Made by a program: the position numbers and the translations under genes
Shown: positions 1,202-38,233 of the stretch, piece after piece
Layout of the letters: every line of letters begins with the position of its first letter
Position numbering within the stretch: the stretch's first letter is position 1
DNA from: Siphonodentalium dalli
Lineage: Eukaryota; Mollusca; Scaphopoda; Gadilida; Siphonodentaliidae
Direction: 5' to 3'
DNA length: 64,000 nt
Assembly: GCA_032622095.1 (NCBI GenBank)
Contig: CP136065.1
Span: 41,701,503-41,765,502, forward strand
The notes under the pieces: model-generated
Database searches by the model: none
Told to the model about the DNA's origin: nothing
What the model saw: the letters and a program-made list of their open reading frames with translations, nothing else

Positions 1202-3192
1202 CAGTGATGTAAGTTTTCCGTTTTTTGCCAGTTTTTCGTTCCGTTCCGGCTTCGGTTTTTTTTTTCTGGCTTCCGATTTTTTTGTCCGATTCTTCGTTAG
1301 TGCTTTCACTTTACCGGATGATGTCAAACAATCTTCCGTTTCAGCACACTGAAAGCATTCCGCGATATTGCTTTACCGACCTCCGGTTATGAATAGCACA
1401 TGTCTATTGTTGTTCTTTTCGCGCCTGGATAATTTCTTAGTCGCATTTTAACAATAACAACAATGAGTATTTTAAATCGAGATTCCCCGATCAATGACGT
1501 GGGATTGAAAAACAAATTCAATTGGTCTTGGCTGGAACAAAAAGATGTTCACGGCGACTTTCTATCCGATTACATTAGGAAAATAAACGTTGCTGGAAAG
1601 GTATTGTGCATTTATTGCGGCGATCACATCAAGTACGGTTCGTCGGGAAAAAAAGCCCTGCACAATCATGCATCGTCGGCAAAACACAACACAAGCAGGA
1701 AAACCTTGGCCAACAACCAACCTCTGCCCAGTGTTTTCACCAGTACACAACTTCTGGAACAGGGTGCTGTGTTGAATTCAAATAAACCTCAGACTGAATC
1801 CACAATGAAAGCTGTGTATGGAGCCCCACCAAATGTGATCACCCCAGGTGAGACTGCTGCTGAACCAAAACCATTGCCTGTTGTACACTTTACGGACAGA
1901 GTTTCTCATGCAGAGGCGCTGATATGCAGCTTTATAGCAGAACATTCTCTCCCGCTATCAGTTATGCCAGGGATCATTAAATTGTCTCAAGAGCTGAGCC
2001 AGGACAAAAAAGTTTTAGAAAGTCTAAAAATGGAACGACAGACAGCAACCTATAAATTGAAGGAAGGATTAGCAGGTGTGTCACGTAAAAGGATAGTGAA
2101 TCGCATTTTTCAATTAACTTGGATGAATGCACAAACAAAGCTAACAAAGAACGTGTATTGAATATTCTTGTTTGCTTTTTCGATGATGATCTTCAAAAGA
2201 GTGTTGTAGAACACTATGCATCAGTCACCATGACAACTGCCAATGCCACAACTGTCCACAAGGTTGTTACAGATCTGCTGATTGATGATGACATCCCACT
2301 TGCAAATCTAATTTCAAGTTTATCGGACACCACAAATTATATGAGAGGGAAATTAAATGGATTCGAGACCATGCTGAGAAAAGATATTCCCTCACTTTTG
2401 GATATTGATGGAGATATTTGTCATCACATTCATAATTCAGTAAAATTGTTCTGCAAAGCTTTCGATCGACATGTTGAGAAGTTTGATGATGACATATTCA
2501 TTGACTTTAGGTACAGTCCAGAATCAAGAGAATACTTAGAAGAGATATGTCATATGCTTGGTATAAAATACCAGGTACCAACTGAGAGAATCCAGCATAG
2601 ATGGTTATCAGCATATGATGTTACTGTCCGCAATGAAAGCCTATTTGATGCTTTCATTCTGTATTACAACTGTTGGCTATCATAATATGATCAGGAAACG
2701 TACAAGGACATATTCTTGAATATTTTCAAGAAACTGTCAAAGGAGGCCAAAGTCAGGTACTTTCAGATTGTGAAATTCATGAAGGGGAAGAAGTTAACAG
2801 ATGATGGGGAAAAAGAGGAAACAACTATTATAGAAAAAGTATTCTACGAACGACAACTGACTCTTGTTTGTGTTCATTTGTATTGTGCGCTGCTTCCAAT
2901 TTTCAAATCGTTCGTATTAACATTCAAGATGAAAGAGCCCATGGTACACTGTCTTCATGATGAAGTTGTTGCTTTATTCAGGAATTTTCTGGCATGCTTT
3001 GTTAAAGTAGATTCCATCAAGGATCTGAGTGCTCGGAAGCTATCAAGAATGGATCTATCTGACTCACAGTATCACCTGAAACTGAAACATATCTTTGTTG
3101 GTGAGAAGGCAAATGGCATCTTGCAACAGCTTGATCGTGAGGAGAGAAAGGAATTTCTTGACAAACTGTTGAAGTCATATATTGACACAGCA

Positions 3193-3949
3193 ACATATAT
3201 GTAGGTGTGCCACGATTAATCGTATAATCGATGAACCGTTGATAAAGCCGATAATCGATTACCATTTCCGTAATTTATTTCGGACGTCGGAATACCATGT
3301 TTGTTTTACACAGTTTAATCTACAACCGAAGGTTTAACAACCTTTGATCGTGCATCAGAGAGATTCTGACAACATGAGTATACTTAGATGTTACTAGTAC
3401 AGGCTATTACTTATTGTGTGGTGACTGCTGAATGAAAATCACAATTACTATCACAATTATTTAACATGTTCTGAGTTTTGAAATTTCTGGGTGGGGGGCT
3501 ACCTTTGTGATTGTTATCCATGCACACTCTGGAAGTTTGCTGAAACTTACAGTTTCTGTAACATTAGATTCCTTTTTTTTAGGAACCGCCGGCGGTCTGT
3601 CATGCATTCCTATTTTTATATTGTTTGTATGTTTGGCTATTCATAACACTAAAATTAATGGCTATGTTCGTTCTAATGAACTCACAATTATTATAACCTG
3701 GACATCGCCGAGAAATGTGCTGGTATTGAATACATTGGGCTCATTAGTGATTACCGGTGGTTTATGGTGCACATTATTAACGTAAAAAATTACATCAGCC
3801 GAGTTGTTTAACAAACACCCAGCCAATAGGCCATATTACGGAATACTTCCACTGTTATTGATATTAGGCACGATTAATCGATTATAATCGATTATTGACG
3901 ACCGATTATCGATTATCAAAATCAATAATCGTGGCACCTCTACATATAT
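3193..3949. mobile_element. Non-autonomous hAT-like element with 8-bp target duplication
   Basis: ACATATAT occurs at 3193-3200 and again at 3942-3949. The element between them (3201-3941, 741 bp) begins GTAGGTGTGCCACGATTA and ends TAATCGTGGCACCTCT, giving inverted ends of the TAGAGGTGCCACGATTA type. Subterminal ATCGATTATAATCGATTA-like runs are rich in ATCGAT. There is no credible coding frame. It split the hAT transposase gene in its third segment. Confidence 0.85.
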
Positions 3950-4543
3950 GCAAGGCAAACTTCCTCTGCGAAACGGAGTTCTTGAATCTGTGTCATCTCT
4001 AGATCCACGAGCTATTGGATAGCGTCACAGAATCATTGCTTGAGGGAGTAAAATATTATTTCCCTACTGTCATCACAAGAGACCAATTTGACCAGTATGA
4101 TTTGGAGTGCAGGAGGATTCATCTAGATCCATGTCTGCCGGATTATTCAAATGATTCAAGACTTGATGAGTGGTGGTCAAAGGTTTTGAAGAGTGACTAT
4201 CCAATCTTGGGAAGAGTGGTCAAAGCATGCCGGTCAATTTTTACCGGACCAAGAGTAGAACAATCATTTAGTACTATGAATGATGTAATATCTAAGAGAT
4301 CAAACAGAATGGCTGTCAAAACCTATTCCGCTATTCAAACTGTCAAATATGATCTTCTTTCTAGAGGACAGACGTCTATTGAAAAATTTCATAGAGATGA
4401 CCATCTACCTACTCCAGTGGATAAATCTCTTATATATTACATGCAGACATCATATGGTAGGCACTAGAGGAGGCAGACTAAAAAGGATCAAGTTTCTAAA
4501 TCAAAAGATGTGTCAATTCCAGCTGCTGCTGCTCATTCTCGTA

Positions 4544-9268: not shown

Positions 9269-10245
9269 ATGTCTGCTCAGGCAGCTTACGACATAGTGTC
9301 GAGAACTGTGAAAGTTTCTGTGAATGGCCGTCAGGCACACTCGTTATCCCAGGATAAAGTTGTTTCTGTTTTGGGTGAGGTATGTTCCCTCCAGGACAGA
9401 CTCGAAGCAGTTTATCGAATGGAACGATCCGATGAGTGGTTTATGGTGTTAGATTCGGAGATAGCTGCAAAAAACATTGGACATCAGGATGATTTCTCGT
9501 GCGAGGGAATTACTTTTAAATTTTCGCACTATCTAGAACAGAAAGTCACTGTTCGAGTACACTGGCTTCCGTACCACGTTCCGGGAGGCATGGTTCCCGT
9601 TTCGGGAAGGTGATGTCAGGAAAATTCGTCACCTCCCAAACAAAAGGGATTAGTTATCGGACCGGCGTGAAGGAGTGGGAGTTGAGAGTCGATCACGACA
9701 CCAAGGCTTTGATCCCACACACGACATCCTTCGGTGGGTATAAAGTTTTAATAACAATGGCAGGGAGGCCGCCGCTGTGCCTACGGTGCAACACAGTAGG
9801 GCACAGAAGCAGAAATTGTACGGGCCAAGGGGTTAATGGGACAGCAAACCCTTCAGGACCCCGACCTTCATACGCCGCTGCAGTTTCGCGCGGGCCACAG
9901 CCACAACCAGCCCTGAAACCTGTGGTGGTGGATGGCGAGACTGTTGAAGAGGAGAAGGAAGAAACGCAAACGGAGAAGGAAGAAACGCAAACGGAGGAGA
10001 CCCCGGCAGTTGAAGGTGTAATTGAAGGTCTTGAGGAAACGTCAAAAGAAGGAAAAGAGGAGGAGGAGACATTGAACATGGATACCGAGTCCAACAAGAA
10101 AAGGACCCGGGAACGGACCCCATCTGGGAGCGACTCCGACTCCGTTGACTCGGACCATGCTCCGAAAAAACTTTTAGCTCTAGTCGAGAATTGCCCAATT
10201 GTCATGGGCGGTCCCACCAGGAGGGAACTCATAGACATGACCTAA
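9269..10245 (+). pseudogene. LINE ORF1 (zinc-knuckle RNA-binding protein), one frameshift
   Basis: ORF1 proteins of this LINE group bind the element RNA and help form the retrotransposition complex. The N-terminal part (9269-9613, MSAQAAYDIV...) and the C-terminal part (about 9610-10245) are in different frames, so at least one indel lies near 9580-9610. The second part has a CCHC zinc knuckle, CLRCNTVGHRSRNC (C-x2-C-x4-H-x4-C), at about residues 57-70 of that segment. An acidic Glu/Thr-rich region follows, with a short duplicated EKEETQTE, and then a basic stretch (NKKRTRER). The start at 9269 follows the 5' UTR directly. Similarity to the Tx1 branch is judged from the knuckle context and the ORF2 type. 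Confidence 0.85.
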
Positions 10246-10487
10246 ACAATGGATATCACAGTTCTTCTATTTCTGAACATTACGACATGGATTTGTCCCC
10301 GGATTAATGTAATTTCTATAACGGACCCTAAACGAACCGGACTGCCCACGAACCGCCATATCTTTATGATTATGCAATCGGCTTCGGCCGTTTGTTTGCA
10401 ATTATGCTTTGTTATTATTATTATTATTTACCTTTCCATACAGGTACGTTTCAGTGCACGTGTATTAGCCACTTTATCTGCCAAACA

Positions 10488-13400
10488 ATGATGGATAAAA
10501 TCAAAATAGCCTCGATAAACTGTAATGGCCTGGGCCTCCATAAAAAGCGCCATATCTTGAAATATCACTTTGATCACAATAACTTCAACATAATATTTTT
10601 ACAAGAAACTCATATAATGAAATTATATGAAGCCCGTAACATTTCAAACTCAATGAATTGTGATGGATTTTGGTCTTTCGGATCCAGCCGCTCGTGCGGA
10701 ACTGGAATACTAATATCCAAACACCTAGAATGTAAAGTTCACAAATATAATTATGACTTTGAAGGCAGATATGTTGTCATGGACGCAACTATAAATGGTC
10801 AACCACTTAGACTAATCAATGTATATGGTCCTAATGCACAAGGCGACCGAAAAAAAAAATTCGATAATATTCAAAACCATTTTGTTACAAGCCGGCCTAT
10901 TATCATAGGTGATTTCAATTTTATTACTGATCCAAAACTGGATAAAATAGGAGGTGATGATACCATCCCAGCGACTGGGAAATTATGGCCTACTATAACC
11001 GAAAATTTCAGACACCTTAACAAACAATCTATTTGCACGACATGGCGACAAGGAGCTGTAGCAACGCGTCTCGACCGTTTCTACATCTCTAAGTCGCTTA
11101 TGCCCTCTGTTAAAGACTGTAGCCAACTTGTAGTCGGTTTCACAGACCACGAACTTATTCATTTTACATTATCTGACACCCGGTGCCAAACAATAGGACC
11201 GGGTTACTGGAAAGCCAACACTTCACTGTTTCATTTACAAGAATTTCAAGAGGAATTCAAAACATTTTGGTATGAAATAACTAATGAAATAATTGATGCC
11301 ACGGCAACCACAATTTGGTGGGAAAGCGCTAAACAACGCATCAAAGATTTCATTATTTCATTTTCAAAACAAAATGCACGCAAAGAAAGATCTACTATAC
11401 TAGACATGCAAAAATTATATTATTCTCTAATTGAAGCCGAGAAAACCAATACCGGCAATTATATTGAACAAATAATTGAATTACGCAACAGGCTTAGAGA
11501 CCTACAATCTAAAGCCACATATGGCGCCCATATCAGATCCAAATCTGATTTCCTCGATCATCAAGAGCAGCCGTCTTCTTTCTTCTCTCGGTTAGAAAGA
11601 AAACGTGCATCTCAAATAATAATTACAAATATTAAAGATGGTGAACATACATACACCAAAACTGATGATATTTTATGCAAATTCCGGGAATTCTATTCCA
11701 ACTTATTCACAAAAGAGGAAATTGGGGAAAGTGCTTGCGATTCATTTCTCAAGGATCTTCCTCAAATTTCCTCTTTAGACTCAGCAATGTGCGAGTCGCC
11801 AATCACATTATCTGAAATCAAAAAAGCAGTCAAAGACATGCAAAATGACAAATCACCAGGCAGTGATGGCTTAGCCAAAGAATTTTATGCATCATTCATT
11901 GACATGTTAGCGCCCACACTTCTCGAGGTGTATTCCGATGTTTTCAACAATAAGGCACTTACGCCATCTCAAAACCTCTCATTAATTGTACTTCTTCAAA
12001 AAGACCCTTTACATCCAGAAGAAATGGGCAATTATCGACCTATTAGTCTTCTTAATTACGATTATAAAATCCTATCGAAAATCTTCAGCAACAGACTACG
12101 CAATGTGATATCATCAATAGTTCATCCCGATCAAACGTGTGGCGTGCCGGGAAGAACTATTCTTGATAATGCACATTTGTTACGGAATGTTGTTGATTAT
12201 ACCAATCAGAAGAATGATGAATGCACTTTTATAGCACTAGATCAAGCAAAGGCTTTTGACAGAGTAAATCATGATTATTTACTCAAAACATTAACAGCCT
12301 TCGGCTTTGGCGATAATTTCATCGCATGGGTGAAAGTATTTTATACTGATATTTGTTCCAGTGTCTTGGTTAATCATTATGTATCAGATGATTCAGATCC
12401 ATTCCCTGTCACCCGATCCGTAAGGCAAGGGTGCAGCCTCTCACCTCTATTGTATGTTTTATGCATAGAGCCATTCCTTATTCACCTGCGTAATAATCCG
12501 AAAATTTTGGGTTTGAAAATGCCCGGTACATCAGAAGTGGTCAAGCTCAGTGCGTACGCCGATGATGTAACAGCCATTCTCACATCTGAAAATTCCATCG
12601 GCGAATTATTCAAATCTTGTTTTCTTTTTGGAAAAGCCTCAAAATTAAACATGCACAAAACATGTGGCATTTTTCTCGGAAAATGGAAATCCCGCTCTGA
12701 TCATCCCTTTGGGACCTCATGGGCAAAACACGCTAAAATTGTTGGCATACAATTTGGGAATAACATTCCAGCCGACGATCATTTTCATAAATTATATACT
12801 AAATGTACTGCCTCGTGCAATAATTTATAAGACAGGAAACTCTCTCACTTCGGGAGAGCCAAACACATTAATGTTTTTGCCTGTAGCAAGCTGTGGTATT
12901 ATGCAGGTATAGTTCCAATACCTAAACATTATACCAAATTATTTCAAAAATCTATGTTTTCACATTTCTGGAAAATTAAAGGTGAGCCACTTGCGCGTTC
13001 TGTGTGTCACAATGATGCCCTCAATGGAGGCATTAATTTGTGCCACATTCCAACAAAACAAGCAGCTTTTTATCTTAGCCATATTCAAAGGCTCATAAAT
13101 AATCCTGATGTACGATGGAAACATTTTGCCATCTATTGGATTGGATTCTCACTCCGGCATTATAGGCCGGATTTTGCATCCAATCTCATACCTCACAGCA
13201 TGGACTATACCCCATTGTTTTATTTACAATGTCTTTCCGCTCTCAGGGCGTACAAATCTTGTGTGGACTCAGTTGAGTTCAAAAATATATCAACCAAACA
13301 ATTTTATGATGTTCTAATGTCTAAAGTCATTCGAAGATCAAATGTTGAACAAAATTGTCCAACGTTTGATTTTAGAATTACTTGGACCAATCTTTCTGAT

Positions 13401-13931
13401 AAATTTCTAGATCCATTTTGTCGATCAACATGTTGGCGCGTAATTCATGAAATTCTGCCAACAAATTATAAATTACATAATTTTCATATTGCACGGGATA
13501 ATCGATGCTGTCTATGCAAAGCGGAAGCCGAGACTATACAGCATCTGTTTGTCGACTGCAAAAATATACAATTATTATGGCTACTCATTTTTAATTGGAT
13601 TTCAAATTTTGTCACAGATATTAAAGTATCACCATCTACTAAAGCTATCAGATTTCTGCACCTTCCAGCAGACTTCGCCAAAACACAACGTTCGGCAAGT
13701 TTAGCCCTCATTTCTGAGGCAATCAATACAATTTGGTTTGAAAGAAATGAAACCAAATTCAGGCATAAATGCATTTCTCGAGACAGCCTAGTTGTCGCTT
13801 TTCTAGCGCGACTTCGTGCGCGTATACTAAGCGACTTCCGGCGTCTTGAGAGGTTACATTTCCATGAATATTGGGCACAAAATAATGACATATGTCAAGT
13901 CATAAACGACAAAGTCGTATTCACATTTTAA
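10488..13931 (+). pseudogene. LINE ORF2: endonuclease-reverse transcriptase, one in-frame stop
   Basis: It nicks target DNA and reverse-transcribes the element RNA. The APE-type endonuclease comes first: IASINCNGL, LQETH, INVYGPN, IIIGDFNF, TRLDRFYIS and FTDHELIHF. The reverse transcriptase follows: KSPGSDGLAKEF, YRPISLLNYDYKILSK, ALDQAKAFDRVNH, SVRQGCSLSPLLY and the catalytic box AYADDV at about 12555. A C-terminal Cys/His motif (CCLCKAEAETIQHLFVDC) lies near 13506-13560. The frame is single from end to end except for one TAA at 12828-12830, beyond the catalytic core. I place the start at 10488 because the endonuclease begins there; the frame is open back to 10392, which would add 32 hydrophobic or low-complexity residues. 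The 242-bp gap after ORF1 is typical for two-ORF LINEs. Confidence 0.9.
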
Positions 13932-16090: not shown

Positions 16091-18278
16091 TCACGATCGG
16101 CAGATGTTTAACCCATACCCGGGCGATAGCGATTAGCTATAACTGATAATTTATCAAAGATATGAACACAGGTATCCATATATCAGCACCATCTTGAATT
16201 CAATAGCTCAAATAATTTGTCTTAAGAAGGGGTTAAAGTATTTGTGGTTGCGAAAGGGGGGGGGGGGGTGTTCTAAATCTAATAACTCTATCCTTATTCA
16301 TCCAAGGACCTATCTATGTGAGATCCAAGGGTTTAGTTATTTCTGAGGATATGTTTATAAGTTGAAGTTAGCTCATTGGAAACAAAACTACCAGCTATTC
16401 AAATCTCATTCACTTCTAAAGAGAAATTATAATTAGTTGACAAGCCAGACTGCATAGAACAACATGTGGGATTCCATCTCATATTTAATTTGAACTTTAA
16501 TGACCCCCCCCCCCCCCCATTCTTCCCAGTTGTTATTTGTTTATCAATCATGTCAAAAATGCATGTAGTTTATACAGTATAATTCAAAAATGTTATCTAT
16601 ATAATGTTATACAGCCATGTTATACAGCCATTATATGGTGCGGATGCTGGCCCCAATGATCCCTAAATCGAAAAGATTACCATAGTTAATATAAAGGAAT
16701 GTAACACTGAATCAAATGGTTTCAAGACATAACAATATTTTACAAGTAGCTTGCAGACTAAAACACATAACCTTCACTGTTAATCTTTTAAGCACTCTGT
16801 GGTCCCCAAAATTCAGTCAACCATGACAATATGAACAGATGGGAAAATAAGGTTCCTGGCAATATTATCTGCCATATTGATTTTCAAAATAATGCATCAC
16901 CTATAATCTGTAAGCATATTCAATTGGTGTCTTATTGAACGTTCATTAACTAATGAACCTGATTCAAAAAGAGGGTTCATTTAATATGTTTCTGCATAAT
17001 ACAAACAATAATGAAGATTTATCTGCTTGTAACCTATTGCATATAACAATTATATTGGCTATTAGCCATTATTTTAATGTAATATCAAAAGAATGTGTCT
17101 GAAGGGTTAATATATTTTTCAAAAATCAATTAATCAATTCCACAATCCATAGAAGTTAATAGTGTGAAGATAACCCAAGATAAGACATATGAGGAAGAGC
17201 CCATGTGCATTAAAACATAAATCTGTTGGAAACTTGGAAAGGGTTAATTATTTTCTAAGCATATCAATGGAATATGCAGACAATTGTGTAGGTCATGGGT
17301 CAATTATCAGGCAGCCTGTAATGAAATTTCAAAATTAGATAAACAAGAGCCTGGTGTCATTTATCAAATTTGACAATTAACCAGCCATCAGTATAATATT
17401 GTTTGTTTATCTTGGTATCCATCTAACCACTTGGCCATAGCTAAATAGCAATTAATCATTTCATGAGCTGTTTACAATCTACATGGGCATACACCAGGGA
17501 ATGTTATCATTATATTTCCAATAGAGTTGTCCACCATTCGACCATATACCAGTGTATTTCATGGAACTACATTATAAGTCACTTGAATTATAAAGGGCCA
17601 TAACTCTGTTAAAATATATCGGATCAAACCCAAATTTGAACTTGACCTGTATTTTGGGGTGAGGACCACATGTACCAAATTTGGTGCAGATCAGATGAAA
17701 AATGTTTTGAGTCATAGCAGCTTGCGTGAGTTCTAAGTAAACATTAAGAGTGAAAAGGGTTAATTAAATGATACCAAAAACCATACAGATGAAGACCTTG
17801 CTAAGAAAAACCTAGGTAAGAAATATGAGGCAGATCAGAAGATATATGTTCAACTTATTACATTGGATAGCATGTGTGTGAAGGGTTAATTATTTTCTAA
17901 ACTGATCAACTAATCGATACCAAAAACTATACAGGTGAGGGGTGTGTCATCATAAACCTACATATCAAATATGAAAACAATCAGACAAAAAATACTTTGG
18001 TTATAGCATCGGATAGCTCATGACTATGTGCAGATGCAAAGTGTTAATAATTTCTAAACCGATCAACCGATCGATACCAAAAACTATACAGGTGAGGAGT
18101 GTGTCATCATAAACATAAAATTTGAACAAGATCCGATAAAAAATATTTGAGTAAATGAATCGGATAGCAAGTGTCTACGGACAGACGGACAGACAGACAG
18201 ACGGACAGACGGACGGACGAACGACGGATGGTTGATCCGGACGTCGGCATTATGTGTACCATACATGGTATGGGTACA
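16091..18278. repeat. Bivalve-type dispersed repeat inserted in the hAT gene
   Basis: About 2.2 kb with no coding frame. It contains G and C homopolymers (about 16256-16268 and 16504-16519), an 'AAAGGGCCATAACTCTGTT' block at about 17593, three diverged ~125-bp repeats containing 'ACCAAAAACTATACAGGTGA' (about 17760-18175), and a GACGGACAGACAG run (18178-18222) near its right edge. Exact ends and target duplication were not resolved. Confidence 0.6.
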
Positions 18279-20483
18279 CATAAAAAGCACAGGACAGCCA
18301 GTGGCGGACAGACTTCATCGCAGACGCTTGCCAACTTTAATTATCAAATGCCAGCATCTTCAGCAAATAACAGTACCACTCCTTCTACAAGCAATGCTAG
18401 TATGACAAATCAAAATGTACCCACGCAGCAGTCGCAATTGCCTATTTCCGCGGCAGCAGCTAAAACCGATACACTGACGGCAGAGATACTGTGGTGTATG
18501 AAAATGATTGATGACAATTACTCGTACCGGTCATCTGAAAAGACAAACAAGTTATTCCAAAAAATGTTTCCAGATAGTCAGGTGGCTAAAACATTTGCAT
18601 GTGGAGAATCCAAGAGTAAATATTTAACCTGTTTTGGCATTGCACCTTATTTGTCAGGCTTACTGAAGGATGTTATAAATAAGGAGTCTGTGTTCGTGTT
18701 GTTATTTGACGAAAGCCTAAACAAGAAACTACAGGAAAAACAATTGGATGTCCATGTAAGATACTGGAGGGGTGACCAAGTGGTGACACTTTATATTGGC
18801 ACTGAATTTATGGGTCATGCAACTGCTCAAGATTTATTTGACAAATTTAATTCGTGCATTAAAGACTTGCAATTAAAAAATTTAATTCAGATATCAATGG
18901 ACGGGCCTAATGTCAATTGGCGGTTCTTTAAAATGATGCAGGATGAACTGAAACGTGACGGTAACTCTGAGCTAATCGACATTGGCAGTTGTGGCTTGCA
19001 TGTAATTCATGGTGCATTTTTGGGAGGTGCAGTTGCGACTGGGTGGAGTGTTGACAGTATTCTATCCAGCATGTACTACCTATTCAAGGACACTCCAGCC
19101 AGAAGAGAGGACTTCACCAAAATAACTGGCAGCAGCATATTCCCCCTGAAGTATTGTAAGCACCGCTGGGTAGAAAATCTGCCAGTTATTGACAGGGCTC
19201 TTAAGATGTGGCCATCTATTAAAAAATATGTTGATGCAGTAACGACTAGAAAGGTTCCGGACCCAAAAACAAAATCGATGGAGGTCATCGCAGCTGCAGT
19301 GAAAGATGATCTATTTTTGGCAAAGGCATATTTTTATCAGTCAGTTGCCAAGGAAGTACACCCTTTCTTAGTTAGATATCAGACTGATAAACCTATGGTG
19401 CCCTTCTTACGTAAAGACATCGAGAAATTACTGCGGGACGTTCTTGCAAGGTTTGTAAAAGATGCGACATTAAGTGATGCTACTGACGTGAAAAAACTGG
19501 TATCAATTGATGTGACTGACAAAACAACATGGAAAGATTATTCAAAGATTAACGTGGGTTATTGTGCCGAGCAACAGCTAGGGAAGCTAATGTCAAACAA
19601 GAGGGTGAGTGATAAAGGACGGTTGGAGTTCAGGATAGATTGCCGTAACTTCTTGATAAAACTTGTTGCCAAAATAGTGGAAAAATCACCACTGAAGTAT
19701 TCAATTGTTCAAAATATGGCTTGTTTAGATCCAACTAATTACGGAAAGAAAGAGAAATGCACACAATACATGAAGAGAATTCTTTTCCATCTGTGTGAAT
19801 ACAATTATGTAGTGGAAGCTGATTGTGATGATATCATAAAACAAATGCGTGACTTTATTTCTGAGGCATTACTTGACGAAAGATTCAAGAAATTTAATTA
19901 CATCACTGACAGGATAGATGACTTATTGTATTCAAAATTGGCAGGAGATCCCCAATACGGCAAGTTGTGGAAGATTGTAAAAGCCATGCTTGTCTTATCA
20001 CATGGACAGGCAGCTGTTGAGAGGGGTTTTTCGACAAATAAACAACTTGAAGTGGAGAATTTGAAAAAGGAATCATTGGTGTCTCAGCGTGTTATCAAGG
20101 ACTATTTGATTGAAATTGAGGGACTTGATAATGTGATTATTACAAAACCGCTATTGGTATCTGCCACCAGTGCCAGACTGAAATACCATGCATACTTGGA
20201 CAGTCAGAGAAGAGCAAAGGAAATCACAGCCCAATCTCTGAAACGTAAGGCCACAATCGATGAAATTGACTGTATCAAAAAGAAAAGAAGGAGACTGGAG
20301 GAGGATATTAAACTGTTGAAGCAGTCAGCTGATGATTTTGCAGATAAGGCAGAAACAAGTAGGAAACTAGACTTCATAGTAAAATCAAACAGCCTTAGGA
20401 AAACTGCCAAGGAGAAAAAAGAGTTGCTTGCAGCAGCCACCAAGCAGCTTGATGACAAATTAAACGAACTCAAAAATAACTAA
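18279..20483 (+). CDS. hAT transposase, catalytic and dimerisation part
   Basis: A single open frame of about 735 codons. Conserved hAT landmarks, in order: LLFDESLN (first catalytic Asp), SMDGPNVNW (second Asp), CGLHVIHGAF, CKHRW, and GQAAVERGFSTNKQ with the Glu of the C-terminal dimerisation domain. It ends in a lysine-rich, probably coiled-coil tail (KKKRRRLEEDIKLL). The frame is open upstream to 18171, but those ~36 residues come from the GACGGACAG repeat and the foreign insert, so they are not original. The finger's second half (KKHRTASGG) marks the true junction. No stop or frameshift is seen, so this is the best preserved transposase frame on this hAT. It excises and reinserts its element in the nucleus. 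Confidence 0.85.
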   Translation, partial: HKKHRTASGGQTSSQTLANFNYQMPASSANNSTTPSTSNASMTNQNVPTQQSQLPISAAAAKTDTLTAEILWCMKMIDDNYSYRSSEKTNKLFQKMFPDSQVAKTFACGESKSKYLTCFGIAPYLSGLLKDVINKESVFVLLFDESLNKKLQEKQLDVHVRYWRGDQVVTLYIGTEFMGHATAQDLFDKFNSCIKDLQLKNLIQISMDGPNVNWRFFKMMQDELKRDGNSELIDIGSCGLHVIHGAFLGGAVATGWSVDSILSSMYYLFKDTPARREDFTKITGSSIFPLKYCKHRWVENLPVIDRALKMWPSIKKYVDAVTTRKVPDPKTKSMEVIAAAVKDDLFLAKAYFYQSVAKEVHPFLVRYQTDKPMVPFLRKDIEKLLRDVLARFVKDATLSDATDVKKLVSIDVTDKTTWKDYSKINVGYCAEQQLGKLMSNKRVSDKGRLEFRIDCRNFLIKLVAKIVEKSPLKYSIVQNMACLDPTNYGKKEKCTQYMKRILFHLCEYNYVVEADCDDIIKQMRDFISEALLDERFKKFNYITDRIDDLLYSKLAGDPQYGKLWKIVKAMLVLSHGQAAVERGFSTNKQLEVENLKKESLVSQRVIKDYLIEIEGLDNVIITKPLLVSATSARLKYHAYLDSQRRAKEITAQSLKRKATIDEIDCIKKKRRRLEEDIKLLKQSADDFADKAETSRKLDFIVKSNSLRKTAKEKKELLAAATKQLDDKLNELKNN

Positions 20484-27553: not shown

Positions 27554-28207
27554 GGAAATTAACTATATTTCTTTTGATGCTGAATCCGGTGTCTACATTC
27601 TTGTAAAGAATCACCAAAGAGGTTATTTTGAGCAAGTGACAGTTCAAATGGCATGTGCCTAAGTCAACCAAATAGACTTTGTCATCTGGACTCGTAAAGG
27701 ACTTCTCGTGATCCCAGTTGAGTTCGATGAGACATACTGGGTAGGATCACTGTTGCCTGCAGCACAAACATTTTATTCTCAATTTCTTGTTCTAAAATTC
27801 TAACTTCCTGAATAAAGTTGAAGCTGAAACAAGACAACGCATTAAATGTTTGTTCATCAGGAAATGATTCTTCATCAGGAGAATCTGTGTCGGACATTGA
27901 TGATACATCAGCAAGTATTAGCAGTGTTGATGAGCAAAATATTGCTACACCAGTAATAAATGTAAAGAACCCAAATGTTGACTCACCAACCAATGGACAT
28001 TCTATGCTAGCATGTGCAAAATATTGTAAAGACAAAAGGGCCCCAAACTATTCAAGAGTGAAAGGACATTCTGTGGAAATAACTTCGATTCTACGGAAAT
28101 CCATTCAATCTTAACTCTTATACATAACTCATTGGGAGTTGTTCAGTTACATTGACTTATTATTTCTAGTCATACTATTTCGTGCAATTCGGCATTTTTT
28201 CATGCAA

Positions 28208-28281
28208 TAGACCATTTTCACAATCGACAAGGAATTATCTCCCCTTGTGTGACCCGATGCAGATCAGAGCGAGAGCGAGGC
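28208..28281 (+). repeat. Left terminal inverted repeat of the ISL2EU-like element
   Basis: Pairs with 37272-37334 over TTTCACAATCGA and AGAGCGA(G/A)AGCGAGGC, with a more diverged middle (AATTATCTCCCCT against AATTGCGTCCCCT). Confidence 0.85.
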
Positions 28282-28379
28282 AAATTGTGTCATCATTATT
28301 TCGTTTTTGTTTACGCTGAACACATTTCTTATCTGAGGCATTTGCGCGTACAAACAGACCAACTTTGCGCACTAGAACT

Positions 28380-31300
28380 ATGAATTACAATCGAGGGGAA
28401 TCGCCACAACTACCAGATATTGGTAAGTTAACAACAATATTTATTCCCGTTTGTAACGGCGCGAATTTGCTGTCACTGTCCAGATAAGTTCTGTCAACTT
28501 CTGAATTCATGCCGGTGAATGGGCGTGACCAAAATGGGACACGGGCAAATTATCAATGTTTTAAAGTAAAGCATGCCCATTGATAGCGTATTATATACAG
28601 TGTGTAAATTCTCAGCTAATGTATCTTTCGTCCAATTAATAGTGTCTGTGATTAGTGTTTATTAAGTTACAAGTACATGTAACTCTAATCATCTAATGTC
28701 ACTGAGCGTGAGTGACAATGTCAAGTCATTCAGCTGTTCAGAACTTCAGTTCACTGACAAAGACTAATTTCTCTCATCACATTTAATAGTATTAAAAATA
28801 AAACTACTTAGTATGCACAATATTGTATATTTATTTATTTTACATTATTTTATAGCTATACGTTTTTGGTATGGTACTATTACATTGTTTACAAATTACA
28901 GGTACCGGTACATGACAATACCTGCATTCTTAAAGTTTAAAACATTGTCGGTACTTGCCAAATTACAATATAATCCTGTTGTGTGTGTGAATTAATGTTT
29001 ATTATTATATACATGTACCCACCCATTAACTAACAATTCTTTGTGTTCTCATGTTTATTGCAGGTAAAGACTGCAAAGCAAACACAAGTACATGTAAAGC
29101 AAAGGGTAAATCATCGTCCAGGGGATCACAGTGTTGTGTCTATGGTTGCATGAACTATATATACCGGAAGGATGGAACTAACTCGGGAATTCATTTATTC
29201 AAAGTACCCAAAGATGTGCTGAGCAGTAAGAAGAAATGTGATAGATGGTGTCAGTTAATCAAGCGACAGGATGGTCGAGATGGGTTCTCACTAAATAAAT
29301 CAACAAACATTTGCCACAAACACTTCAAACCAGAATTTATTCATATTTCCATGGTGGCGAAAAAGTGGACTTTGTTGACAGGTGCCGAACCAGTTATTTT
29401 CAACACAGATGACAATCAACAAAAGAGAAAGTCACCACGGAAACTATTGGCCTTCGCATCTACACCTACCAGTGTTACAAAATTTCCAACCGTCACAGAA
29501 GAATTTCAGGTTTGTTAAATAATGATATTTACACATAAGACCAAAATTAAGTATGGCACTTCAAAACTGAATGTGCCATGTGGCTGCAGCTTCATAGTAT
29601 AAAGTGCTTTGTAAACATATCATTAATAACTTATTATACAATTGGAATGTGTGAGTGATTGTAAGGTATGTATGTTACACACATACAGTAATGCCCTAAT
29701 TAATCGACCTCTTTAAAACCAAAGCAGAATTATGGGTAACGTTTCAGGATTTAGTCGGAAATATGGCTTGTTGCCATTCATCAGAGAGCTTTCCGATGAA
29801 TGGCAACAAGCTATATTTCCGACTAAATCCTGAAAAGTGACCCATAATTCTGCTTTGGTAAAGAGGTCGATTACTTAGGGCATTACTGTACATACTGCAG
29901 TTAATTATCAAATGCAACAAGTCTTGAGAATTAAAATGAACATGAAACATTCTTGTGGTCAGGTACATATCAATAATGTTGATTGATTATATGTATTACT
30001 AGCTGGGCACCCGGCATTGCTCGGGTACAGGAGATTAGAAAGAACATAAAAAGCTCACTGTTCCTGATGGTGTATGGATAAAGAGCGTTTGTATTCTGGT
30101 ATTACAATTAATAAATGAAGTAAATCATACCATTCAAGACATCTGAGGTCAATGTGTCCTATTTTATAACACGCCCCATGAAAAATCAACCAGCTGTACC
30201 ATCTTTAAATTCATAGGCTTCAAGTTTAGTCGCCAAGACATATTTATATATTACATTAATTATATTTAATTATTCAATATCATTACAGGTCATTGAATCA
30301 GGCATGGCGACACAAACTGACATGCACTCCATGGTAGATGCTTCAACTCAGACAGACAATCACATGGACAGCCCAGCAATAAACAACAATGATCATAGTT
30401 ATTATTACGATATCAGCTCTATTATGTGTACCAACAGTATACATCATCTAAAAGAAGTTGTTACCCAGATGAGTAAACATATATCTGCCATGGAAAGTAA
30501 AATTAAAACTGCATCTAATTTCATCGAAGAACTCATTGACACAGTTGAAACATATGAAGCCAATCGATTCTGTTTAGAAAATATCAAGGCTGATGATAAT
30601 GCGATGCTTTTTTATTCAGGATTTATGAACTACCAAACATTTGATGAAACTTTCAAATATCTTGAGCCAAATGCCCGTAATATGTTGTATTGGCGTGGAC
30701 AGAGTGATACAGATACTGCAGATGCTAAATTGTATCAAATGTTTGGTGGAAAACCTGGCAAAAAAAGGAAACTGACACTACGTGATGAATTCTTTATGGT
30801 GTTGGTGAGGTTGAAAGTTGGGCTTTTTGTTCGTGATATTTCATCGCGTTTTGAAATATCTGAAAGTCAGTTTTCAAAAATATTTACGACATGGATAAAT
30901 TTTTTGTATTGTGAACTCCCTCCATTGTTTCCATTTCCATCACAGGACAGAATAAGACGTCTAATGCCATCATCATTCCATCAATACCCAACAACAAGGA
31001 TCATTCTTGATTGCACAGAAGTATTCATTGAAATACCATCTTCAATGCTCACACAATCAGAAACATGGTCTAATTATAAACACCACAATACGTTTAAAGT
31101 ACTAGTTGGTGTGACTCCCAATGGTACTGTTTCATTTGTTTCTAGACTGTGGGGAGGTAGAGTGTCTGATAAGGAGACAGTTAAAGAAAGTAGTGTTCTT
31201 AACATGTTGGAGCCTGGTGATAATGTAATGGCGGATCGCGGGTTTGAGATTTCTGATATATTACCAGATGGCGTAACACTCAACATCCCACCATTCAAAC

Positions 31301-31506
31301 ATAAAAATCAGTTGTCATCACAAGAGGTTGAAGATACAATGAACATTGCCAGTGTCAGAATACATGTTGAAAGGGCAATCGGCAGAATAAAAAATTATCA
31401 CATTCTGGATGGAGTAATACCACTCAGCCTAAGTCACATTGCTGATCAGATGTTCACAGTCATATCTTACTTAACATGTTTCCTGCCACCATTGGTTCCA
31501 GAGTGA
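28380..31506 (+). CDS. THAP zinc-finger DDE transposase, three exons
   Basis: Predicted exons are 28380-28422, 29064-29509 and 30289-31506 (568 residues). The donors are TTG|GTAAGT and CAG|GTTTGT; the acceptors are TTGCAG| and ATTACAG|. Phases agree (43 + 446 + 1218 bases = 569 codons with the stop). Exon 2 holds a THAP C2CH finger: CCVYGC, then ICHKHF about 50 residues on. Exon 3 opens with a hydrophilic, probably coiled-coil region, then a helix-turn-helix (VRDISSRFEISESQFSKIF) and a DDE_Tnp_4-like core: IILDCTEVFIE (Asp), NVMADRGFEIS (Asp) and RIHVERAIGRIK (Glu). No stop or frameshift is seen. It would bind the TIRs and cut and paste the element. Intron 2 contains a group F MITE at 29686. 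Confidence 0.85.
29686..29888. mobile_element. Group F foldback MITE in transposase intron 2
   Basis: TA-CAGTAATGCCCTAA at 29686 and TTAGGGCATTACTG-TA ending at 29888. The arms are near-perfect inverted copies with a short GAGAGC loop. It lies wholly in the predicted intron, so the coding frame is untouched. Confidence 0.92.
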
Positions 31507-31548
31507 TATTAATTGTATTATTTTAGTCATTCAATATACAGTGTACAT

Positions 31549-31825
31549 GTAACAATCAAGCCTGAAAATATTGTGTCTGCCATTTGCAGTCTGAGGTCCC
31601 CAGTGGGTGACTTTAGTGATGCTATCCCGCAGTGAGCTAGCATCACCAAATTCACCCTCTGGGGACCTCATTCTGCTTAGCCTTAGGCCTAATTTTCTGG
31701 GAGGTATCTATTGTCTCAAATTAACATTGTTTTTAGTTACATTTTCCCTGTCTGTGAAGTTTCTATATCCCCTAATTTGCCAAAGATAATATGAATAATC
31801 GAGGTGACTAATGGGGGGGGGGGGG

Positions 31826-31861
<36 letters not shown>

Positions 31862-32053
31862 GAACACCAACTTTAACGAGGAACTTCAATCTGATCCTGG
31901 GTCTCCCATAGCAGTTGAGGCCGAAGTGGAATGAGGTTATCAGAGGATGAATTTGGTGATGCTAGCCCACCATGCATGATAGCATCACTAAATTCACACT
32001 CTGGGGACCTCATTCTGCAAATGACAGACACTATTTGCAGGCTTGGTAACAAT
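31549..32053. mobile_element. Group H hAT-like MITE, 8-bp duplication GTAACAAT, with poly-G
   Basis: GTAACAAT lies at 31549-31556 and 32046-32053. The element 31557-32045 has CAAGCCTGAAAATA and GCAGGCTTG ends and two inverted GAGGTCCCCAG modules. Its middle carries an almost pure G run of about 47 bases (31814-31860), which may be an expanded or poorly assembled tract. It sits between the two convergent gene ends. Confidence 0.9.
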
Positions 32054-32383
32054 CCATTGTTATGTCAAAAAGATACCAAACGTTTTTAATGTCAATTTCA
32101 GCTAAAAACAACACAAATGATGTTGAGCATTAAATAAATCCTGATCTTTCACAACATTGTTATGGTTTTTATATACATACATGTACATGTATAAACTGAA
32201 ATTTTAATTGATCAGAACCGTATTTTTCACATTTTCAATGATTCAACCTGATGATTGGGGCGACTTGGAAAGAGGATTCATCTGTAGGCCAAACCACTTT
32301 TCAATTTTTTCCATTCATCAGGTTGAATTATTGAAAGTCCTCTTTCAACCCTGCGAGTGAGAAGTTCTGGAACAAAAACATAC

Positions 32384-33811
32384 TTATAGACAGGGTTTCC
32401 GTTAGTACGGCTCAGCGTCCGTAGGACGGCCTCATTCCCCTCGCATATTATCTGTTTGGTTCATACATATACCAAATGTCAGTCGCAATGTCGTAAACAA
32501 ATCCGGTTACAACGGGAGTTCGGGTGTTAAATAGAATACTGGTGAAAAAGCGGGTCAAATAGCGACGTTAGATACAGCGTAATGCATGTCGCGGTAACAT
32601 CAAAAAATGTCGGACTGCTGAATATGCATGCTCATGCTCGAAAATCCCGTGATATCGTAGGATTACATAATTTGATCAAAGAACGCCGAATTTCTTAGTC
32701 GGGACATTTTTATGCACGGGATTTTCATGAATGAAACTGCTCCTCTCCGAGATCCCGTGCTATCGTACGGTGGTACATAATAAATGGGTCCCCCTGCAGA
32801 GTCCATGAGGTATAGAACGGAGTTTTAGCCAACGTGTTATAAAATATAATTTGGCGGGAGATGTGAACACGTGCGTCGTTGATTGTGCTTGGGGACAACG
32901 CAACTATTATTTACCGTCCTTTGACATTATCTCCATATTGGGGAGGGGGTATGTGTTTGTCTTTATCACCCATGTATGTAATATGGTTCATATGAATGGT
33001 GTTGTTAACTTGTCACTATGAATTCCCACTATAAAGACTGATTTCGGGACAGGTTCCGTTTTACTGTGAAATAAATCACGTTGGGATTTTTTTGACTATG
33101 CGCATAATAAGCAATTGCGGTCGTCAGTTTATGGACTAATATATAGAGACTAGTGAACAAGCTACGCGTTCCGAGTGAAAGATGTCCCTACCCACAGGTA
33201 TTAGGCACAATTTTGTTTTTAAATTTAATAAAAATCTCTTTTTATTAATTTTTTTTGGTGCCAAATACCTGTGTCGCTACCATTCGTATTTTGCCGCTAT
33301 AAATAGCTCCTGCAGTATGACGTCACAGCGCACAAATAGTTTTACGATTGACAGCGTATATCATGTCAGTTTCATTTTCACAGAAGCTGCTTGCAATTCT
33401 AGGAAATACTTTATTCAATTCTCCTTGCTATCTATTATTGGTCAATGCATAGATGTTTTGTAGTGTTTAGATTCATCGGAATCTTATTGTATAAATTTGT
33501 AAACAATAACTAGTAGCTTGTTCATTTATATATAATCTTCAATCAGACGGCAGTCTTATGTGCGTAATTAGTTGATTGATTATCTGGATACCATCAACAG
33601 AATTAATGCACCCACGGAAATGATTGACTTGCGTAATATATACGTAGCTTTGGTTGCTTTGTGAGACTCTTATGTGCAAGGAAATTGCTACTTTTCAGTG
33701 TCAAATAACAAAAGTTTCGCCCGACGGGACGAACCATGGTCGTCCCGTCGCGTTATGTGTTTCCCCAATACGGACTCATCAATTTTCCCCTCGCGGAAAC
33801 CCTGTTATAGA
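32384..33811. mobile_element. Non-autonomous hAT-like element in the nuclease gene
   Basis: TTATAGA occurs at 32384-32390 and 33805-33811, around 32391-33804 (1414 bp). Ends are CAGGGTTTCCG and CGGAAACCCTG. Near the right end is a small palindrome (GACGGGACGAACCATGGTCG). It has no gene. A 7-bp repeat is one short of the usual hAT 8 bp, so one base may have mutated. Confidence 0.85.
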
Positions 33812-34547
33812 ATAAATCTAATTTGGGCAATATTTGTGTATTCCACAAACATTCATCAAACATTATTCTTTCCACAAAAATATCCTGCCCAGGTCCGAAC
33901 CATACAACAAAATCTGTCCACTTCAATTCGGCGACAAACATTTGTCCTTGGACCTGGAAAAACTAGTGATGATTCCTGGCTAGTTTGTAATTTCCATCAC
34001 CATCTTTCTTTATATAGAAACCTCTATCAGAACAAGCTTGTTCAATTGTAAGTCCATGCTTACTTAAGGGGCACTTAACTTCCAAACCCCCATTTGTTAT
34101 ATCAGCTGTTGGGTCGACAACCATGGCATCCAAACTGGCCCCATAGCCTGGTCGCTTCGAGGACAAAATAATTCCTGGTCTGTGCACTAACACTTGACAA
34201 TTATGTGAGCATTTATACAATGTGTATGCCTCAATTGCAGACTGTTCAAATTGTTTTCCATAATTAATGGCAGTAGAATGGGCTTTTCCATACAACATCA
34301 TTTTTATCACACTGTCTGGGAGCCTCGTTCCAAGAATTCTTCCAAAATTGGAAGCAGTCATTTTATATTGGTGAAGTTTTTTCCAAAATTCACACTCGCT
34401 CTGTTTTCTTGTAGATTTTTCTACATAAGAAATTGATTCAGCAGAAATATGTTCATTTGCGAATATCGGTTCCACATATTTCTCAAAGAACTCTTTGTCA
34501 ATTATTTCTGTGTCTAAAATCTCAATATTTTTTTCAATCAAACTTGC

Positions 34548-35659
34548 ATCACACTTAGTGTTCAAACGATTAGTCGACAAATAATCGTCGACGCTGGTTT
34601 TTCGGGTAATCGACTCTAACTTCCACAGTCGACTAGTCGAAATACAGTATCTAATCTCATCAGCTGGCCTTGACAATGCATGGTTTCACTAAATGTGGGT
34701 CAGAAAAGCAGCAAAGATAGCTAGTCTATGTTCAAGAAGCTTTCCAAAGTCCAAACATATGTCCTAATGTCGAGCTTGACATAGAACTACGCCGAAATTC
34801 GCCAATGCGATAATTCAAGTTAACCATTATCATTACAAGAGCAGTAACTCTATATTTGACTTCTAAAAAGTACGTGGTCCATAAACAGTAAATATTAGGT
34901 CGCGGCGTACTTGACCGGCGTCTCACGCATGGTCCAGGTTAATGCCACGTGGTCTTTGCATTGCGTCATTTAGTTTCTACGCTCGCGCACATTTCATACT
35001 CCCTATACCGCGGACGCAAAAATTCGTAGTGCGCATTTCTAACCAACACAGGTAAAGAGGGAGGGGCTTCCACAAAAGTGTTCGTCGACACTAACTGAGT
35101 CTAACTCTCTGCTTGCTACGTACGCCTTACGGAAGTTATGGCAACTTACATGGCAACTTACAAAGTAGGCCTATGTACACATCGTATATATAATCATTAA
35201 TAATTATAATATGTGTCACACAGTCTGTGTGCACGTTTTCTTTTGTTTTGTTTTTTATTTTGAGCTGACTCTGAGACTGAGTATCGTTTATTTTTTATAC
35301 ACTGGCAGGGAAGTATTTATTTGATTTCATGATTAACAGAAAATCCCTCAATTATTTCCTCAATTATTTATTCTCATTATCATCGTAGATTCGTAGGGAA
35401 CTTATTTGCGATCGGTGGGTTTCTAGAGCACCGGTTCATTTGCAACAAAACCACGTGACGTGTCACGTGATTCAATTCTCCGATCACAGTAGAGTGTAAA
35501 TAGTGTGATGATGGCACGGAACTTGTAATTTTCTTTCACATGTGCTTCATTAGTATAAGGTTGGTGATGTATTTGGCTGACTAGTCGACGTCGACTCGAC
35601 TTTTGGTGTTCGACTAGTCGACTCCAGAATCCCAGAGTCGTTTGAACACTAATCACACT
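34548..35659. mobile_element. Non-autonomous hAT-like element, 8-bp duplication ATCACACT
   Basis: ATCACACT lies at 34548-34555 and 35652-35659. The element 34556-35651 (1096 bp) starts TAGTGTTCAAACGATTAGTC and ends GTTTGAACACTA, with GTCGACTAGTCGA-rich subterminal parts on both sides. There is no coding frame of its own. It interrupts the nuclease gene between CCD-type codons (KCD and ASLIEK). Confidence 0.93.
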
Positions 35660-37271
35660 TGCTTGTAACATTATTCACTTGGTTGATGGATTTATTAAGT
35701 GTGCTGTCAGTTTGAATGAATGTTTCCCGACTATACAGCGATGTTGAACACACATTAACATTCATATAAATGTTTTCATCAACATTGCTAACAAAAGCAT
35801 TTTCTGCATTCGTTGAATCAGTTGCCTGTAGAGGGGGGTTGTGGTAAATGAAAAATCCAGAATTTGGACAGGATGCCTCCAGATTGCTGTATAGTGTCCT
35901 TAGTCTGATTGGATCAACTGATCTATTTTGAGGTGCCTGTGGATCATACGTACTACGAGTGGCTGTTCTCTCAGCCGACACCTTCCCAAATGAATGTTTC
36001 TTAATGTTGAGTTGACTCACTGGCTTAGGTGTGACCTTTAGATTTCTTGGCACAATCCATTTATTCAGAACTGAAGTACACGAAAGGGTTACCTTGTCCT
36101 TCTCATTGTGCAGACCTTTGGCATTGAAATCATGGATGGCGAATAGTAATCCCCCGATATGGTTACATTTTGCAGCTCCTTTAACACCAAGGCTGGAAAA
36201 TAATAGTAATTGTCTTTATTGCCATGATATAAATTATAATACTAATATCATTTAGAATTTGGAGAAAATCAGTCATTGATTAGCAAATTATATTATTTAC
36301 ACTCTCACAAATATATAATATCTTTTGAAAGGTGTTAACACAATTCATGGCTATTTCTACAATCACAGACCTTTATGGCTATAGTAAGAATAATATTACA
36401 TTTTAATTTAACAATATATAAAGTAAAACATCTGTATACAAGTGCATGTACAACTTTAGTACACTTTCATTACATGTACCGGTAGATGTATGCACACTAA
36501 ATCTTAAATTATGTCCAGGTATATTATCATGCATGTATATACATGTATACATGTATGTATGTATACATACATATATATCATATCTCCAAAGCAATACTTT
36601 ATATTATTCTAATTCATTCTTACCCTGCTGGACATTCACATGCAGCATATTTGACATCAGCAACTTCATCAAACACAGCTATAACTCTGTATCGTTCTGT
36701 CTTCATTGATGCCTTTACTTTTGCTTTAATCCAAGTGTGATTAAATCCCTTGGCTATTTCATAGCCTGTAACGAATCCTTCTGCAAAGAACTGATACACC
36801 TTCATTTTTTTGTAACAAACACCTTTCATGTCTGTCTCGCCATATTTTTGTGTCCTCGTTACCAGATACGTAAACAATTGGTAAAAGTTCAGTGGAGGGA
36901 ACTGACGCAAATCTTTGCCCCAAACACGATCATTGGCAGTGCCACAAAGTTTTAGAAACGTGATTTCGCTCAATGAATTCAATTCATTGAATATGGAACA
37001 CGAAGCCGAAGCCGATCTCGATACATTGTTTGATTCGCTCGAATTCTGGGAATGCGAATTATTTTCCGCTAACATGAACGCATGACATCTGGCAACCAAA
37101 ATAGATTTATTGCCAGTATATTGCTGATTACGTGCACGTAATATATCCTTCAGCTGAGAAGATTTTAGCTTCCATAATTCATCTAAAGTATAGTCGCAGT
37201 GGACGTCAACATTGTTTATTTTGTCGCCCATGATTTTAGTATGGAATTCTTGGAATATGTCTACACACAGA

Positions 37272-37334
37272 GCCTCGCTTTCGCTCTGCTAAACAGGGGA
37301 CGCAATTGCTTAACTCGATTGTGAAACTGGCCTA
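37272..37334 (-). repeat. Right terminal inverted repeat of the ISL2EU-like element
   Basis: Inverted partner of 28208-28281. It lies about 40 bp upstream of the nuclease start codon, so it probably overlaps that gene's promoter. Confidence 0.85.
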
Positions 37335-38233
37335 TTGGGGCATTTTTCTATTCGTTTACTCTCAAGGCGAAGCATCAAGACTCTTCTTGTTATATATATT
37401 CATATAAGTTGGAATAGTGGGAGAATTGTTAGATTCCACAAAATAGTATATTATACGCTTCCCCACTCACTTTAGATATTATTCAACATAATTCATATTA
37501 ATAACTGTTTATTATAAGGCTGTGTGACGTAGCAGAAAGATCTATATTTCTTTGCTTCAAATTTGTGAATTGGTTAACTTTCTGCGCGGTCATTGGTTTT
37601 CAGGAATTTTCGACGTTCCATTAATTGGCTCTCAGGAATTTGTTACGTCCTTAACGTTTGGTCCTCAGGAATTCTGTCAGTCCATTTATTGGATCTAAGG
37701 AATTCTCTCTATATATAAGTTGCGTTGTTCCCAACGTCAGTGTCATTCGTAATACAACCTTTGACACTTTAGCGCTTAAATCTTTTCACATCATCTTGCC
37801 TCCATATAGTGAGAACTTAAGTCCGAACCAACATCAATATTTCCACTAATTTTCCAATAAGTCCAAATCCATATCAACATTTCCTACTTAGGGAATGTCT
37901 GCATCGTCCCATGCACTACTTAATTGTCCAACCACAGGGTTTGACATACCGTATAAAGATACATAGCTCTACATTGTCCGTAGTTAACTTCCAGCTTTAT
38001 GCACAGTCAACATATATAAAGTCTGCATCAGGCTCTTTCATTGACTGTACTGGTTGCCCGTAGATCAAAGTCAATGCCTATCGGGAACAACACGTCTATA
38101 CTGCAATTAGTGTTATTATATATTTATAGTAGTTATTACTGCTGTGGTATCATCTACTCACCACATTATATAAAGAATGATACAAATGTACATATTCTAA
38201 AGAATAAACTTCATCAAGTTCAACTCAATTCAC
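37335..38233. other. No recognised feature
   Basis: AT-rich. Contains 'TTGGTTTTCAGGAATT'-like phrases repeated three times (about 37590-37700: CAGGAATTTTCGACG, CAGGAATTTGTTACG, CAGGAATTCTGTCAG), a loose ~40-bp tandem repeat. No gene was identified. Confidence 0.5.

Follow-up and report, generated by a model that had tools for sequence, protein, structure and literature searches.

A scaphopod locus very probably occupied by a decayed two-gene ISL2EU transposon with a predicted YqaJ-type nuclease

Introduction

Why would a cut-and-paste DNA transposon carry a nuclease gene beside its transposase gene? The question is raised by a 64,000-nucleotide stretch of the genome of the scaphopod mollusc Siphonodentalium dalli (hereafter, the window), which occupies C5:41701503-41765502 of the 2.23-Gb assembly (9 contigs) that we searched. 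About 9.1 kb of the window, from 28209 to 37333, form an element with inverted ends and two convergent genes, which a first-pass annotation had taken for an apparently complete ISL2EU-like transposon. Our analysis indicates that this element is very probably a decayed copy of a two-gene ISL2EU (PHIS superfamily) cut-and-paste DNA transposon. Below, places in the genome are denoted by L numbers, and feature coordinates are those of the window (Table 1).

Termini and Target Site

The inverted arms of the element are 23 nt long and 91% complementary (28205-28227 and 37315-37337, with 9087 nt between them). Genome searches with 213 bp of each end yielded 18 matches for the left end and 27 for the right end, the window being counted in both. 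The matching termini about 9.1 kb apart that had been reported from the window itself are therefore genuine and recur genome-wide.

Into what sequence did these elements insert? We examined 20 other places, of which 14 have both ends and 6 were picked by the right end only. The target site was evaluated in 10 of the 14 two-ended places and in the window; L024, L025, L027, and L028 were excluded for having a lost or altered left end, the right-end pattern being retained in L024 and L025 and not in L027 and L028. In all 11 copies, an outer A precedes the element and an outer T follows it, and in 10 of the 11 the target site duplication (TSD) is AT on both sides, the exception being L021, with AT and GT. 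The footprint is thus A(AT)T, i.e., AT duplicated within AATT. With AT taken as the TSD, the ends of most copies read AGACC (left) and AGGCC (right).

Furthermore, joined flanks from 5 of the 11 copies were run against the genome, and since all of the matches listed belong to L017, the empty-site evidence concerns this copy only. The joined L017 flanks had at least 40 genome matches at 92–100% identity, every listed one of which crosses the joint. Consequently, L017 sits within a repeat whose unoccupied, paralogous copies read AATT. Alignment on AATT left no net gap in 30 of the 40 listed matches and a net gap in the other 10, which disfavors TA as the duplicated dinucleotide.

Native Copies and the Decay of the Window Copy

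Is the window copy complete? The native length of the family is 6.57 kb, as seen in L017 (6565 bp) and L018 (6564 bp), which match the window copy end to end except for two stretches, with 97.8–99.6% identity in long blocks; L031 does so at the same identity from 28528 onward, except for the same two stretches. The extra length of the window copy, 9.1 kb in all, is due to two other transposons within exon 2 of its nuclease gene. Both inserts are absent from the compared copies in alignments with other places in the genome and are thus later than the element that hosts them. These lengths rule out a complete 9.1-kb element.

The nuclease gene of the window is broken three times, by a 1414-bp insertion, a 1096-bp insertion, and a TAG codon. 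The longer insert recurs in at least 39 further places at 95–100% identity and appears to be a very recent burst; at least 16 other places carry it at full length and ~100% identity. The shorter insert also has at least 39 other places, at 95–98%. Its 8-bp duplication fits a hAT element, and we call it hAT-like, a class assigned by its TSD and terminal inverted repeat (TIR) only. The description of the element as apparently complete must therefore be withdrawn. The copy in the window is in itself a decayed insertion of an ordinary kind that could provide transposase at most and no nuclease.

We compared the state of both genes in six other copies (L017, L018, L019, L022, L031, and L034). L017 and L019 retain an open transposase frame, and in L018 a stop occurs at codon 7. 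L031 and L034 have lost their left ends and with them transposase exon 1; this exon is missing from L022 too, and exon 3 of L022 contains a 2.4-kb insertion. An open nuclease frame is present in L017, L018, and L031; L019 has no nuclease exon 1, and in L034 and L022 the nuclease is out of frame or stopped. Only L017, one of the six, has both genes open.

Shorter relatives were also seen. Copies L019, L020, and L022r are internally deleted, with filler at the joint in L020 only; L019 and L020 have a common right breakpoint (window 37189) and different left breakpoints. L021 and L023-L030, of ~0.57–5.3 kb (L026 has 566 bp), resemble the window element only at their ends (~86–92%) and are likely non-autonomous relatives.

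The Transposase and Nuclease Genes

The transposase gene on the forward strand has three exons that are open for 568 amino acids, and both of its introns have GT/AG borders at the positions proposed in the first-pass annotation. Its product carries the ISL2EU set of Pfam domains, THAP, HTH_Tnp_4, and DDE_Tnp_4 (E-values in Table 1).

On the opposite strand, the convergent nuclease gene has two exons separated by a GT/AG intron. Here, the gene and its exon 1 stood as first drawn, and the start of exon 2 had to be moved from 36195 to 36192, its end lying at 32278. Domain searches used the intact protein of L017 (665 amino acids, of which 658 were submitted to Pfam). This protein matched YqaJ (1.8e-11) and Viral_alk_exo (4.1e-9), as would the second open reading frame (ORF) of ISL2EU. 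A profile of the YqaJ region matched 3syy (2.8e-11), mimivirus R354 (5yeu, 2.1e-6), and the alkaline exonuclease 2w45 (5.6e-4) in the PDB, and its E, GASxD, E-x-K, and Q-x-Q blocks align with 3syy. Four families retain the active-site residues E, D, E-x-K, and Q, which the first reading of the window had already pointed out; two of these families share only ~35% identity over the YqaJ domain. These residues and profiles point to an accessory protein that is a predicted lambda-exonuclease-type (YqaJ) nuclease. A search of the PDB with the whole nuclease by phmmer gave a single match, to a designed protein, which we regard as spurious.

The accessory protein had further been described as a fusion of SAP, SWIM, and YqaJ parts. 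The YqaJ part is borne out, and the other two need qualification. The SAP match of the window family (E 0.023, 14.8 bits) falls below the Pfam cut-off of 23.9 bits, that of the related L064 family exceeds it (1.2e-6, 28.4 bits), and that of the distant L068 lies slightly under it (21.9 bits). The SWIM pattern is CxCx(n)CxH. No Pfam match to SWIM was obtained in segments of the four families even at E ≤ 10, and the CxC...CxH pattern, the sole basis for a putative SWIM finger, is retained in all four, with single-copy exceptions in L018 (one altered cysteine), L042, and L046. An intron splits this pattern at the identical place and phase in three of the four families, L068 having no intron there.

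Co-Occurrence of the Two Genes and Selection

Are the two genes carried together elsewhere? One exon of each gene served as a genome query, and we asked for a partner within 10 kb. The searches gave at least 98 and at least 106 matches, and the matches listed, to which all of the following counts refer, cluster into 81 nuclease and 98 transposase places. A transposase lies near 18 of the nuclease places, in convergent order in 17 and in divergent order in 1. Seven of the 18, including the window, belong to the window's family and are not independent. Pairing depends on identity: a partner is present at 13 of the 27 nuclease places with at least 47% identity, at 4 of 6 with 37–46%, and at 1 of 48 below 37%, this being the divergent one. 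Among transposase places with at least 60% identity, 13 of 21 have a partner.

The proportions of nonsynonymous (pN) and synonymous (pS) differences between the window family and a family at C7:89.87M were 0.169 and 0.774 in transposase exon 3, 0.226 and 0.751 in nuclease exon 2, and 0.176 and 0.815 in nuclease exon 1, with synonymous sites being saturated (pS 0.75–0.82). The pN/pS ratios of 0.22–0.30 show purifying selection on both genes between the two families. Overall, this is the pattern of a lineage in which the transposon requires both genes even as individual copies decay.

Features of the Element and the Rest of the Window

The palindromic miniature inverted-repeat transposable element (MITE) in transposase intron 2 is a nearly perfect palindrome and is present in L017, L018, L019, L031, and L034; similar sequence occurs in L035 and, by translation, near 915-1310 of the window. 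The intergenic stretch at 31557-32047 is probably an older embedded repeat, because alike stretches are found in the flanks of L024, L025, and L034. Next to the stop of the nuclease gene lies a short inverted duplicate of its last codons (~32233-32336).

Elsewhere in the window, a LINE-like retrotransposon occupies 9520-13931, with an endonuclease and reverse transcriptase ORF (RVT_1, 2.7e-36) and zf-RVT. Transposase-like pieces at 1433-4467 are probably hAT; the last one matched Dimer_Tnp_hAT (1.3e-5), and two other pieces that were scanned had no Pfam match. An open frame of 771 amino acids at 18168-20483 had no Pfam match at E 0.001.

Table 1. Coordinates of the element, its genes, and its inserts in the window.
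Feature	Position	Strand	Remarks
Left TSD, AT	28207-28208		preceded by A; window copy AT/AT with outer A and T
Left TIR	28209-28227	+	left end matched 18 times genome-wide (counting the window)
Transposase exon 1	28380-28422	+	GT donor
Transposase exon 2	29064-29509	+	THAP domain (8.3e-12)
Palindromic MITE in transposase intron 2	29684-29890		inverted repeat; not in the more diverged copy L022r
Transposase exon 3	30289-31506	+	HTH_Tnp_4 (2.6e-15) and DDE_Tnp_4 (1.7e-46); stop included
Intergenic inverted-repeat stretch	31557-32047		alike to flanks of L024, L025, L034
Nuclease gene, two exons	32278-37231	-	interrupted in the window copy
Foreign transposable element in nuclease exon 2	32391-33804		TIR CAGGGTTTCCG; 7-bp TSD TTATAGA at 32384-32390 and 33805-33811
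Premature TAG	33963-33965	-	between E-x-K and Q motifs; sense codon in 6/6 compared copies
hAT-like element in nuclease exon 2	34556-35651		TIR TAGTGTTCAAACGA; 8-bp TSD ATCACACT at 34548-34555 and 35652-35659
Nuclease exon 1	36624-37231	-	SAP-like N-terminus; first CxC of the SWIM-like motif; GT/AG intron
Right TIR	37315-37333	-	right end matched 27 times genome-wide (counting the window)
Right TSD, AT	37334-37335		followed by T

Comparison with Known Systems

The two-gene layout of ISL2EU was described in 2015 (Han et al. 2015, PMC4482050). The element shares with that description, as given in the part of the paper used here, the AT duplication in A(AT)T, a transposase with THAP, HTH, and DDE parts, and a second ORF with a YqaJ nuclease, which upholds the original assignment to ISL2EU. 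On the other hand, autonomous consensus elements average ~4.84 kb and usually have TIRs that start with GG (PMC4482050), compared with a native length of 6.57 kb and mostly AGACC/AGGCC ends, with AT as the TSD, in the window family. In addition, introns are present in both genes of the window family, and its nuclease adds SAP-like and SWIM-like parts. Neither SAP nor SWIM is mentioned in the main text of that paper, and our literature search found no paper that joins SAP and SWIM to such a nuclease by its title or the start of its abstract. As far as tested, the window element is a new family of an already described kind, judged against the published ISL2EU description rather than Repbase sequences.

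A nuclease is also carried by another transposase superfamily. KolobokE, in the portion of PMC9587614 considered here, likewise has a lambda-exonuclease-like nuclease; there, a single protein contains it, following the transposase domain, whereas it is a separate gene in the window element. A similar arrangement occurs in the same genome at L069/L070 (C6:226767000-226769500), the one place examined among the 48 weaker nuclease places, where an open frame encodes a YqaJ nuclease after a PF20700 ("Mutator-like") transposase. This order fits the KolobokE description, and the frame is probably of that kind. PF20700 was the only match of the L070 transposase, with neither DDE_Tnp_4 nor THAP. At least 18 nuclease-search matches, L069/L070 included, lie in open frames of 914–1017 amino acids. 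The YqaJ domain of L068 is 35.5% identical to the L069/L070 frame and 35.3% identical to the window family.

The predicted nuclease has its profile family and catalytic blocks in common with lambda exonuclease and YqaJ alkaline exonucleases, such as 3syy, SXT-Exo, and the herpesvirus alkaline exonuclease, which are not known to have SAP or SWIM-like parts. Relatives of lambda exonuclease are often found near genes for annealing proteins, according to the sections of PMC3118119 drawn on here, whereas the sole frame of at least 150 amino acids outside the two genes of L017 is antisense to nuclease exon 1. PIF/Harbinger elements, too, combine a DDE transposase with one accessory ORF, but in the account given by the same part of PMC4482050 that ORF is Myb/SANT-like and the TSD is TWA, versus YqaJ and AT here.

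What Might the Nuclease Do?

The proposal that transposase and nuclease cooperate, with the nuclease processing the ends, goes beyond the evidence, which consists of the co-carriage and conservation of both genes and does not extend to a cleavage target. Could the nuclease instead act on the DNA that the element leaves behind? Given the family membership and the A(AT)T footprint, the transposase would bind the ends through its THAP/HTH parts, as known families do, and its DDE site would excise the element and join it to AATT with a 2-nt stagger. The SAP and zinc-binding parts would hold the nuclease on DNA, where it would digest the 5' strands from the double-strand break left at the donor site by excision. 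This resection would steer repair toward recopying the element from the sister or homologue; copies would be gained in this way, and some of them would be internally deleted. We tentatively favor such 5'-to-3' resection of the excision break, biasing repair to copying, as the likeliest of the functions considered. The relatives of the nuclease are processive 5'-to-3' exonucleases on linear DNA that prefer 5'-phosphorylated ends (PMC3118119, in the part cited above). The internally deleted copies, one of them with filler at its joint (L020), are compatible with resection and do not prove it.

Several observations weigh against this interpretation. Transposons without a nuclease also undergo internal deletions, and the joints in L019 and L022r have one shared base or none. 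No partner lies within 10 kb of 63 of the 81 nuclease and 80 of the 98 transposase places among the matches listed, where the sole divergent pair is at C5:186573745-186576572. Some partners are missing because these counts rest on the matches listed: L064 is unpaired among them, yet transposase exons are present there on the opposite strand. The weaker nuclease matches, one of 48 of which was examined, may belong to another kind of transposon. The signal of selection is weaker in nuclease exon 1 against the L064 family (pN 0.386, pS 0.835), and within the window family the nuclease shows a pN/pS of ~1, as in decaying copies (0.0133 and 0.0120 for L017 vs. L018); pN also lies near pS in exon 1 for L064 vs. 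L046 (0.0144 and 0.0082). Finally, structure predictions were poor, with a mean predicted local distance difference test (pLDDT) score of 41 for model A1 and 35 for model A2. Model A1 is confident only in the N-terminal SAP stretch (~85 for residues 1–10, ~95 for 11–50, and ~72 for 51–60), and since a PDB fold search with it gave no match at E 0.001 or better, the models were not used for the nuclease.

Alternatively, the nuclease protein might be mainly a DNA-binding helper that delivers the transposase to the ends or into the nucleus, its fold serving in binding. Its gene occupies the place of the Myb-like ORF of Harbinger, whose product is reported to bind the ends and allow nuclear import of the transposase (PMC9179366, in the part consulted), and in one family the SAP match exceeds the Pfam cut-off. 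We consider this possible but unlikely, as binding alone would not require that E, D, E-x-K, and Q be kept in four families, including two that are ~35% identical. It is more doubtful that the nuclease trims the ends or flanks of the excised transposon prior to insertion. Although its family comprises end-dependent exonucleases, the insertions leave a simple 2-bp duplication in A(AT)T and no sign of trimming, and the related group Spy is reported with one ORF only in the part of PMC4482050 used here. Could the nuclease be cargo for another purpose, for instance, an attack on competing DNA such as viruses or other transposons? Relatives of the nuclease are found in phages and viruses, and another kind of transposase carries the same kind of nuclease. 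However, the gene adjoins the transposase in several families and has the same order in 17 of 18 places among the matches listed, and nothing pointed to a defense role, at which no search was aimed; we therefore hold cargo to be quite improbable. That two unrelated host genes merely flank TIR-like sequences can be dismissed almost with certainty, as the ends are multi-copy and paired at other places and have target duplications and empty sites, and nothing was found in favor of single-copy host genes.

Implications

The genome of S. dalli offers natural material for the study of such elements: it has several ISL2EU families that carry convergent transposase and nuclease genes, one copy in which both are open, two genes that are each conserved from family to family, and another type of transposon that carries this sort of nuclease. 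Resection at the site of excision might even extend beyond ISL2EU. It is conceivable, though speculative, that the lambda-exonuclease-type nuclease is a portable module for steering repair, present in ISL2EU as a SAP-SWIM-YqaJ gene and in PF20700 (Kolobok-like) transposons as a fusion, and resecting the excision break in each. If this were true, copy-back repair would turn cut-and-paste transposition into a net gain of copies.

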